Shown here in pieces: positions 20,589 to 23,468 of a stretch of DNA of 64,000 nucleotides; within the stretch, counting starts at the first letter, position 1; each line of letters opens with the position of its first letter. This DNA is from Methanofollis aquaemaris (GTDB taxonomy: Archaea; Halobacteriota; Methanomicrobia; Methanomicrobiales; Methanofollaceae). The notes beneath the pieces are model-generated. The model was not told where the DNA came from and ran no database searches. It worked only from the letters and a program-made list of their open reading frames with translations. The position numbers and the translations under genes were made by a program. The stretch is taken from contig NZ_CP036172.1 of assembly GCF_017357525.1 (NCBI RefSeq), forward strand, positions 1,648,561 through 1,712,560. Reading direction: 5' to 3'.

Positions 20589-21077
20589 CTATCCACGCGC
20601 GTGTGAGATGATATGGAGCAGTTCGGGAACGATGATCTGTCCGGTGGCGAGGGTGACCGCACCGGTCGATCCGGGAAGGCAGAAGATCGCCTTCCCCCCG
20701 GCGACTCCGGCGGCGGCGCGCGAGAGAAGGGCCGAGGTTCCAATTTCTTCATATGAGAGCATCCTGAAGAGTTCTCCGAACCCTTCGATCTTCTTCTCAA
20801 AGAAGGGTTCCACCGCCTCGATGGTGCAGTCGTCAGGGGTCAACCCTGTACCTCCATTGTAAACAACAGCGTCGGCCACCGAGAGTGATTCGAAGAGTGA
20901 GGCCCTGATCGCCGAGGTGTCGTCTTTTACGATCATAGTGTGGATGACATGGTACCCTGCAGCCTCAAGGAGACCGCAGATCGCCTTTCCACTCGTATCG
21001 GTCTCCTCAGTCCGCGTCGAAGAGACAGTTACCACCGCGACGGTCACCTCGATGTCTTTGACATGTTCCGGTTTCAT
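20589..21077 (-). CDS. moaB: Molybdopterin adenylyltransferase-like protein, MoaB family
   Basis: 162 residues. The MoCF_biosynth fold signature is YNGGTGLTPDDCTIEAVEPFFEKKIEGFGELFR (about 93-125), which includes the GGTG substrate loop and the acidic residue; GGKAIFCLPGSTGAV forms the later loop. It activates molybdopterin by adenylylation before metal insertion, in methanogens for tungsten or molybdenum formylmethanofuran and formate dehydrogenases. It is single, transcribed away from the origin region, with an ORB-like site 61 bases upstream of its start. Confidence 0.93.
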   Translation of the reverse strand: MKPEHVKDIEVTVAVVTVSSTRTEETDTSGKAICGLLEAAGYHVIHTMIVKDDTSAIRASLFESLSVADAVVYNGGTGLTPDDCTIEAVEPFFEKKIEGFGELFRMLSYEEIGTSALLSRAAAGVAGGKAIFCLPGSTGAVTLATGQIIVPELLHIISHARG

Positions 21078-21137: not shown

Positions 21138-21168
21138 GAACCCCCACCCCTTCATTTCCACTGGAACA
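21138..21168 (-). promoter_or_regulatory. Origin recognition box (ORB), minus orientation
   Basis: Read on the minus strand this is TTCCAGTGGAAATGAAGGGG followed by TGGGGGTTC. It matches the ORB core and extends into the G-rich tail (GGGGTGGGGGT) also found in the copy at 22014-22040, pointing the other way. Orc1/Cdc6 contacts both the core and the G-string in studied archaea. Confidence 0.78.
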
Positions 21169-21488
21169 AGTGAAAGGAAGAGAGAAGAGAAAAGGAGAGA
21201 TAATGCACTCCTCTGCCTCCGGATCCCCTCCCGTACCCTCTGATGTTTTTACCGAATATCCCCGCACTTAAACAGATAAAACCTGCTTTACTCCCTTAAA
21301 TCCAGAATGGAGATCACCTGAGATCATCCTCATGATCTCTCCTGTACCCTCATTTTGTGCTCTCCGGATCAGTGCGATCGAGGAGGAAAAGGAGGGATCA
21401 AAAGAGGAGGAGGAGAGGATCAAAGGAGGATCAGACAGGATCAAAGAGAGATCAAAACCTGATCTGAGATTCTGGATCCAGGATCCGC

Positions 21489-21755
21489 GATCCCCTGATC
21501 AGAAATTCAGGATCAGAGATCCGCGATCCAGGAAGGGGTGATCTCGATCATGTCTGATCCGAGATCTCCGATCCCCTGATCAGGAATTCAGGATCAGAGA
21601 TCCACGATCCAGAGAGGGGATGATCTCGATCACGTCTGATCCGAGATCTCTGATCCCCTGATCAGGAATTCAGGATCAGAGATCCGCGATCCAGAGGGGA
21701 GATGATCTCGATCACGTCTGATCTGAGATCTCCGATCCCCTGATCAGGGATCTCC
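21489..21755 (+). repeat. About 82-bp tandem direct repeats, GATC-dense
   Basis: The string GATCCCCTGATCAG recurs at 21489, 21570, 21652 and 21734, giving periods of 81, 82 and 82 bases. Each unit also contains AATTCAGGATCAGAGATCC and GATGATCTCGATCACGTCTG in nearly the same form. Beyond 21755 the pattern continues in scrambled form. Hand counting gives about 55 GATC sites in 21367-21934, one per 10 bases, far above chance. Confidence 0.9.
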
Positions 21756-21984
21756 AATCCTTATGATCAGGAATTCAGGATCAGAGGAGAGCTGATCCAG
21801 ACTGGACTGGATCTGAAATCTCTGATCATCAGGATCATCGATGAGGGATCCGCGATCAGATCTCGCGCCGATCACGGATCATAGATCAAGTCTCGGTCAG
21901 ATCGACGTGATCTCTGATCTCTGATCAGATCGGATATATAGTACAAGTCGCGAACCATACAACAAGCTGTTTTTCACTGTTTAA

Positions 21985-22010
21985 AAAGAAAACAGGATCC
22001 TGTTTTCTTT
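21985..22010. repeat. 26-bp perfect palindrome near the origin
   Basis: The half-site AAAGAAAACAGGA is followed directly by its exact reverse complement, with GATC at the centre. It lies 3 bases before the ORB at 22014 and could be a cruciform or a dimeric protein site. Confidence 0.85.
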
Positions 22011-22013
22011 ACG

Positions 22014-22040
22014 ACTCCACTCGAAACAAAGGGGTGGGGG
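22014..22040 (+). promoter_or_regulatory. Origin recognition box (ORB), plus orientation, extended
   Basis: ACTCCACTCGAAACAAAGGG continuing GTGGGGGTG matches the ORB core and the G-rich tail. It pairs in opposite orientation with the copy at 21138-21168 across the GATC-dense repeats. Confidence 0.8.
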
Positions 22041-22094: not shown

Positions 22095-22130
22095 TTTATA
22101 TAGTATCTCCAATGGAAACAAAGGGGTTAT
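22095..22130 (+). promoter_or_regulatory. cdc6 TATA box with overlapping downstream ORB
   Basis: ATTTATATAG at 22095-22104 is a TATA-like box. Starting 4 bases later, CTCCAATGGAAACAAAGGGG TT (22108-22129) is a near-perfect ORB, covering the position where transcription would start (about 25 bases after the TATA box). Binding of Cdc6 here would be expected to repress its own gene. Confidence 0.72.
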
Positions 22131-22184: not shown

Positions 22185-23468
22185 ATGTCTGAAAACGATG
22201 ATCAACCCCTTGGTCTTTTCCAGAAATTCCTTAGTAACAACCGTATCTTCAAGAACCGGGAGGTGCTCAGGCACTCGTACCGACCGCAGATCCTCCCTCA
22301 TCGGCGACCCCAGATCGATGCCATCGCTTCTATTCTTGCACCCGCTATCAAGGATGAGACTCCTTCGAACATTCTCATCTATGGGAAGACGGGGACCGGC
22401 AAAACTGCGTGCGTCCGGTATGTCGGGAGTGAACTAGAGAAGGTGGGCGCCGGGGTGGGGACCGGGTGTCGCGTGGTTCATCTCAACTGTGAGGTGATCG
22501 ACACCCAGTACCGGGTGCTCGCTCAGATTGCCAAGAGCCTTGAGGACCTGGATGCCACCCCGAGTGATCGCGCGCGCGCTCACATTCCGATGACCGGGTG
22601 GCCGACCGACCAGGTGTACACCGAACTCAAGAACCAGCTTGAAGCAACTGGTGGAGTGCTTGTCATTGTCCTCGACGAGATCGATAAACTTGTCAAGAAA
22701 AGTGGGGACGAGACCCTCTACAACCTCACCAGGATCAACGCAGACCTTCAGGGTGCGAAGGTCTCGATAATCGGGATCTCCAATGACCTCAGGTTCACCG
22801 ACTTCCTCGACCCCCGTGTCCTCTCCTCCCTTTCCGAGGAAGAGATCGTTTTCCCCCCATATAATGCCCCGCAACTCTGTGATATCCTTGCACAACGCGC
22901 CGAGATGGCCTTCGTTGAAGGAAGCCTCGAAGAGGGTGTGATCCCGCTCTGCGCAGCCTTCGCCGCGCAGGAACACGGCGACGCGCGGCGCGCCCTTGAC
23001 CTCCTCCGGGTCTCAGGCGAACTCGCGGACCGCGAGAACGCCGAACAGGCAAAGGAGAAGCATGTGCGCATGGCCCTCGATAAGATCGAGACCGACTCGA
23101 TGATCGAGTGTATCTCGACCCTTCCCACCCAGAGCAAGGTCGTGTTGTATTCGATGCTTCTCCTCGAGGAGATGGACAAGAAGATCTTCACTTCCGGTGA
23201 GGTGACCAGGGTCTATCGGGAGGTCTCGCGCATTGTGAACATCGACCCCCTCACCCACCGGCGGATCACCGACCTCATCTCTGAATTAAACATGCTCGGG
23301 GTGATCAACACCCGCGTCGTTTCGAAAGGACGATATGGGAGGACAAAAGAGATGTGGTTTGACAGCAACACGAAGAAAATACAGGAAGTCCTCGCGAAGG
23401 ATCCGAGGCTTTCTGAGGAACGTCTCGCCCAGGTTGACCTCAACCGCCTGAAGGCATCGTTTCGGTGA
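22185..23468 (+). CDS. cdc6: Orc1/Cdc6 replication initiator
   Basis: 427 residues, usual for archaeal Orc1/Cdc6. AAA+ motifs: Walker A IYGKTGTGKTA (about 66-76), Walker B VLVIVLDEIDKL (about 158-169), sensor 1 IIGISNDLRF (about 191-200), sensor 2 GDARRALDLLR (about 265-275). The C-terminal winged helix follows (about 300-410) with the wing region SKGRYGRTKEM. It binds ORBs, loads the MCM helicase and starts replication. The clustering of ORBs just upstream supports an Orc1-1-type role. The Lrp gene follows within 6 bases of the stop. Confidence 0.96.
   Translation: MSENDDQPLGLFQKFLSNNRIFKNREVLRHSYRPQILPHRRPQIDAIASILAPAIKDETPSNILIYGKTGTGKTACVRYVGSELEKVGAGVGTGCRVVHLNCEVIDTQYRVLAQIAKSLEDLDATPSDRARAHIPMTGWPTDQVYTELKNQLEATGGVLVIVLDEIDKLVKKSGDETLYNLTRINADLQGAKVSIIGISNDLRFTDFLDPRVLSSLSEEEIVFPPYNAPQLCDILAQRAEMAFVEGSLEEGVIPLCAAFAAQEHGDARRALDLLRVSGELADRENAEQAKEKHVRMALDKIETDSMIECISTLPTQSKVVLYSMLLLEEMDKKIFTSGEVTRVYREVSRIVNIDPLTHRRITDLISELNMLGVINTRVVSKGRYGRTKEMWFDSNTKKIQEVLAKDPRLSEERLAQVDLNRLKASFR

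Follow-up and report, generated by a model that had tools for sequence, protein, structure and literature searches.

Clusters of the recognition motifs of solitary DNA methylases have been described at several replication origins, namely GATC in gammaproteobacteria, TTAA in Arthrobacter, CTCGAG in Nocardia and CTAG in haloarchaea, and in four cases the presence of the cluster correlates with the presence of the methylase (Blow et al. 2016, PMC4752239). The haloarchaeal CTAG clusters are located upstream of orc1/cdc6 in organisms that carry a solitary m4C CTAG methylase (PMC4752239). At oriC of Escherichia coli, replication leaves the GATC sites hemimethylated, and SeqA then prevents the origin from firing again (PMC6471742). 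In the archaeal order Methanomicrobiales, a solitary Dam-like GATC methylase, HG3, is reported to be persistent (15 of 19 complete genomes; PMC10609329).

The stretch of the Methanofollis aquaemaris genome analyzed here, hereafter the window (64,000 bp), contains a GATC array at positions 21312–21931 (no strand assigned) with 60 sites in 620 bp (97/kb); the count for 21312–21934 is likewise 60. The first-pass annotation had estimated by eye about 55 GATC in roughly 570 bases, for which the exact figure is 57 in 568 bp (21367–21934; 100/kb). The direct repeats of period 81–82 that it had noticed correspond to a tandem repeat of period 82 at 21488–21748 (+ strand; Tandem Repeats Finder, 3.2 copies, 93% matches), whose copies are spaced 81, 82 and 82 bp and which contains 29 of the 60 sites (111/kb). 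The left part of the array (21376–21456, + strand) is purine-rich (GAGGAGGA), with GATC every 9–22 bp and repeats of periods 21 and 11. Spacings between sites are mostly 5–16 bp, 7 and 14 being the commonest, and the overall frequency is approximately one GATC per helical turn. This density is specific to the locus, and an equally high density elsewhere, which the first-pass annotation had named as refuting its reading, was not seen: the window has a mean of 6.7 GATC per 570 bp, and its densest 570-bp stretch outside the array contains 14. Shuffles preserving base composition alone gave 2.1 GATC per 570 bp, with a maximum of 9 (n = 1000). GATC is mildly over-represented in the window as a whole, with 807 sites against 615 expected from dinucleotides. 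A search of the whole genome for three close GATCs returned 131 matches, more than 20 of which fall inside the array; among the matches listed (up to 1.95 Mb), no comparable cluster was found elsewhere, other places having one or two matches each.

The array lies upstream of the orc1/cdc6 initiator gene (22185–23468, + strand; Pfam Cdc6_lid and Cdc6_C) and is flanked by inverted ORBs. The left ORB (21146–21166, − strand) has a PWM score of 33.6 out of 36.8 and coincides with an inverted-repeat arm at 21140–21165. On the right, two ORBs detected both as direct repeats and as PWM matches are located at 22015–22035 (CTCCACTCGAAACAAAGGGGT) and, just upstream of orc1, at 22107–22127 (CTCCAATGGAAACAAAGGGGT), both on the + strand. 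All three matches score 33.5–34.1 out of 36.8, against a maximum of 9.3 for shuffled sequence, and the arrangement of inverted ORBs with a G-string adjoining orc1/cdc6 is the one by which archaeal Orc1/Cdc6-ORB origins are recognized. The left neighbor of the origin is a MoaB/MogA-like gene (20589–21077, − strand), identified by its MoCF_biosynth domain match. Immediately to the right of the array, an alignment of 11 species reveals a conserved block (21932–21975, + strand) with a TATA-like stretch ending TATAGTAC and TACAACAAGCTGTTTT; in all 11 species the TATA-like stretch runs to TATAGTA and is followed by TAC(A/C)ACAAGCTGTTTT. Farther right, ahead of the first right ORB, an inverted repeat, GAAAACAG-GATC-CTGTTTTC (21988–22007, no strand assigned), is found within an AT-richer stretch (GC 0.39–0.45). 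Its arms (AAAACAG-N4-CTGTTTT) are kept in 11 of 11 Methanofollis species and its GATC center only in the clade of M. aquaemaris; it looks like a candidate unwinding element or protein binding site. Judged by its anatomy, the locus is a standard archaeal Orc1 origin to which a GATC array has been added.

For comparison, we used 12 Methanofollis genomes (G000 being M. aquaemaris), 11 of which have DNA upstream of orc1; in G010 this DNA is only 456 bp long. The first-pass annotation had named absence of the array from this origin in sister species as a refuting observation; the array is there in all 11 testable species (15–46 GATC per 400 bp), in sequence that otherwise changes. Density is 37–88 GATC/kb in the ten complete inter-ORB regions of the genus, compared to a mean of 7/kb and a maximum of 37/kb (8 sites in 218 bp) at 92 other Methanomicrobiales origins. 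No other palindromic tetramer (AGCT, CTAG, GTAC etc.) comes near GATC in Methanofollis, and none dominates at the origins of the order. A comparable GATC array is also absent from 40 orc1 loci of the rest of the phylum, among which several haloarchaeal loci with 7–9 CTAG per 400 bp recovered the published clusters and served as a positive control. The array is confined to a single genus. Two apparent exceptions were examined and set aside. In Methanoculleus (G047, L043 721–1030), unrelated repeats, about 62 bp long and containing GATCCGATC, occur in the inter-ORB region; they yield 26 GATC/kb and were judged incidental. In the haloarchaeal genome G208 (L334 2692–2942), the 16 GATC per 400 bp come from a 36-bp repeat within the coding sequence for the Orc1 N-terminus, in which GATC happens to recur at intervals of 18 bp.

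From one Methanofollis clade to another the repeat units are almost entirely different, and the arrays have hardly any 14-mers in common; the 82-bp unit is therefore local to M. aquaemaris, and the conserved element is the GATC word rather than the repeat unit. The three closest species (G001, G005 and G008) have arrays that align well, and there GATC bases are 95–100% identical compared to 82–89% for the other bases. The corresponding Fisher p-values for lower substitution at GATC bases (6e-14, 6e-10 and 0.009) assume independent positions and are indicative only; more distant species pairs were set aside because the alignment itself favors GATC there. We conclude that GATC itself is under visible selection in the array. 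GANTC, the CcrM-like motif, was rejected as the reason for the array, with 0–5 occurrences per array against 11–86 GATC.

M. aquaemaris encodes a solitary DpnA-type beta-class adenine methylase (G000:C1:396266–397051), a type found in 8 of the 12 Methanofollis genomes. These enzymes are 262–272 residues long, contain the motifs LSNGG, KGxWD and PNLSxRxFT, and are 42–50% identical to proteins whose genes lie between those of a Dam-type methylase and a type II restriction enzyme. The M. aquaemaris enzyme is 49% identical to that of the Lactococcus plasmid pSRQ700, where the gene has a DNA adenine methylase gene on one side and a type II restriction enzyme gene on the other; three more plasmid relatives have the same gene arrangement. 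The pSRQ700 record gives gene types only; the plasmid carries the GATC system LlaDCHI. CcrM, which recognizes GANTC, is 44–46% identical to the DpnA-type enzymes but has an extra C-terminal domain. In a tree rooted at the midpoint only, the archaeal enzymes group with those of GATC systems, apart from CcrM. Because of this grouping and of the missing CcrM C-terminal domain, the DpnA-type enzyme is likely specific for GATC. Genome G009 has a broken copy (L257 4739–5133, G009:C13) with an internal deletion and a frame shift, retaining residues 1–107 and then 237–261, next to a SIS-domain-like gene and an aminotransferase gene. Its array is the weakest of the genus (11 sites in 298 bp), and a Dam-class gene was not found in this genome, which is 88% complete. 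Broken gene and weakest array coincide in this single genome, and the assembly may be responsible.

Other methylase genes are present in the genus. A second PF01555 methylase of 339 residues with a lysine-rich tail (GRGRWSIEKMLKKLGVQSNGKRGRPKKKK) is encoded in M. aquaemaris (L190 1016–2035, G000:C1:581015–582034), and genes of similar size occur in all 12 genomes. An island at L191 1813–5963 (G000:C1:1077312–1081462), present in some species only, encodes a PF01555 methylase whose N-terminus resembles a zinc ribbon, along with two cytosine-5 methylases. We considered m5C methylases (PF00145) as a conserved basis for the array and discarded them, as they are present in just 5 of the 12 species.

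The Dam-like methylase for which the first-pass annotation had suggested a search is missing from M. aquaemaris itself, whose genome yielded no Dam/D12-class enzyme in searches with PF02086 and Dam-class proteins; G002, G004 and G011 carry a Dam/DpnM-class enzyme instead of the DpnA type, the closest solved structure being DpnM (E 3e-52). G009 belongs to the clade of these three species, and the tally for the 12 Methanofollis genomes is thus eight with the DpnA type, three with the Dam class and one with a broken DpnA copy. Among 159 Methanomicrobiales genomes, the DpnA type is found in 34 and the Dam class in 111, with both in 4 compared to 23.7 expected (p 8e-16, a value that ignores shared ancestry). 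Such near mutual exclusion is expected if both do the same job, and the two types behave as substitutes in this order; together with homology, it is the basis on which their GATC specificity is considered likely. The order-wide distribution is consistent with the published persistence of a Dam-like GATC methylase in Methanomicrobiales (PMC10609329). The DpnII nuclease (PF04556) was detected in 2 of the 159 genomes (L268 and L269, in G075 and G033, respectively) and is absent from Methanofollis. Both nuclease genes adjoin a Dam-class gene, which supports GATC specificity of the Dam class. One or the other methylase type is present in about 141 of the 159 genomes, and the array in Methanofollis only; presence of a methylase does not predict the array. 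Since nearly all relatives carry a GATC-type methylase without an array, the methylase probably predates the array, which Methanofollis would have added later.

Together, the array and methylases without a cutting partner suggest that this archaeon may time its DNA replication by methylation, much like E. coli. We favor a methylation-dependent brake or licence, in which the array would be a functional part of the chromosome origin where a solitary GATC adenine methylase finds its targets clustered and a hemimethylation cycle delays refiring, and we assign this reading a probability of roughly 0.6. The resting origin would be fully methylated, and its replication would produce about 60 hemimethylated sites at once; this state would hold the origin back from refiring until the methylase catches up, the block being exerted either by a reader protein or by altered duplex stability beside the Orc1 sites. 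In this scheme we infer the GATC specificity of the DpnA-type enzyme, methylation of the sites, control of initiation by their methylation state, and the way in which that state is read. In its favor we count the position of the array between inverted ORBs beside orc1, the arrays in the same place in 11 of 11 species despite unrelated units, the prominence of GATC among palindromic tetramers, the constraint on GATC, the solitary methylases and the near mutual exclusion of their two types, the lack of DpnII and the known pattern of motif clusters at origins. Against it we count that nearly all Methanomicrobiales carry a methylase and no array, that a SeqA homologue is absent, that the DpnA-type enzymes are also 44–46% identical to CcrM, so that GATC is only their likely target, and that G009 keeps a small array alongside its broken DpnA gene, a Dam-class gene not having been found in this 88% complete genome. 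More tentatively, and with the odds leaning somewhat the other way, Methanofollis may have evolved, independently of bacteria, its own once-per-cycle replication lock in which an archaeal protein would recognize hemimethylated GATC as SeqA does and the methylase families would be exchangeable.

In the main rival explanation, a DNA-binding protein blind to methylation (a nucleoid or segregation protein, or Orc1 itself) would recognize GATC as the core of its site, and the array would serve as a loading platform or a centromere-like element. Conservation of GATC alone amid changing surroundings is what such a protein would produce, as are the non-random bases flanking the sites in M. aquaemaris, where GGATCA is the commonest context and NGATCG is rare; moreover, a methylase without an array is the rule in the order, so that the array may exist for reasons other than methylation. 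The word is nonetheless identical to that of known Dam/DpnA methylases, which the genus possesses, the spacing is irregular (5–16 bp) without helical phasing, and 53 of the 64 NNNGATCNNN contexts in M. aquaemaris differ from one another, which is unusual for an ordinary protein site. We consider this explanation rather unlikely.

The array could also act through the physics of DNA, its short palindromes easing melting or hairpin formation, methylated or not, as an unwinding element. Part of it does fold as a single strand better than shuffled sequence (z −3.4), the AT-richer conserved block adjoins it, and adenine methylation at GATC lowers duplex stability. Non-GATC palindromes are not enriched, however, so hairpins alone fail to explain the word, and the GC content of the array is not low (about 0.50). 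We consider this reading improbable. Still less probable, in our view, is that a GATC-rich seed was simply copied by tandem duplication in unconstrained intergenic DNA. The 82-bp tandem repeat is real, array lengths vary between species, and other origins of the order with long inter-ORB stretches bear simple repeats of their own. Such a by-product is at odds with the non-tandem flanks, which are nearly as dense (74 and 97/kb), with the retention of GATC by clades whose units are unrelated, and with the stronger constraint on GATC bases than on the bases between them.

No description of a GATC array at an archaeal origin, nor any literature on the Methanofollis origin, was found in the open-access papers searched. 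Within these papers, the remark of the first-pass annotation that it knew of no such arrangement at an archaeal origin holds for GATC at this density. It needs qualifying for clusters in general, as haloarchaeal CTAG clusters are published and origins with clustered motifs of a solitary methylase form a recognized class (PMC4752239); solitary Dam-like methylases, too, are already reported as persistent in Methanomicrobiales (PMC10609329). What is new here is an archaeal Orc1 origin with GATC twice as dense as in E. coli oriC, together with turnover of the repeat units and a change of methylase family within a genus. To our knowledge, how archaea prevent a second origin firing is largely an open question. 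The Methanofollis origin has the densest GATC cluster met in this analysis, under visible selection, in a host with a GATC-type methylase and no cutter, and a direct test of methylation control of an archaeal origin becomes possible.

The Methanofollis array and methylases resemble described systems in part. HG3 and the order's Dam-class enzymes are probably members of one family; no mention of a GATC array at origins was found in that report, and our results add the DpnA-type substitute in lineages without a Dam-like enzyme (PMC10609329). Both Methanofollis methylase types are homologous to the two methylases of DpnII/LlaDCHI systems (DpnM, DpnA and DpnII), but each species has at most one of them and the DpnII nuclease is absent. 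The parallel to SeqA and Dam drawn by the first-pass annotation survives in part. Like E. coli, whose oriC has 11 GATC in 232 bp (47/kb), the genus combines a GATC cluster at the origin with a solitary GATC-type adenine methylase. Unlike E. coli, it relies on Orc1/ORB in place of DnaA, has 60 sites at about twice the density and, in M. aquaemaris, a DpnA-type enzyme rather than one of the Dam/D12 class; no SeqA homologue (PF03925) was found in any of the 12 genomes by a search that detected E. coli SeqA as a control. The haloarchaeal CTAG clusters are similar in lying at an archaeal origin, upstream of orc1/cdc6, in organisms with a widely kept solitary methylase lacking a restriction partner. 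They differ in word, in methylase class and in a density several times lower; in Methanofollis, moreover, the array is limited to one genus despite order-wide methylases, and the methylase family has been swapped within that genus. As in the clusters of Blow et al., the motif is enriched in a non-coding stretch of a putative origin, and the cluster recurs at the orthologous place in several organisms (11 of 11 Methanofollis with upstream DNA). The correlation between cluster and methylase fails (about 141 of 159 genomes with a methylase, the array in Methanofollis only), and we therefore regard the array as a variant of this kind rather than a described member. If methylation control is true, Methanofollis would join the haloarchaea with their CTAG clusters as the second such case among archaea, and the word of E. 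coli on an Orc1 origin would make a strong case of convergence.
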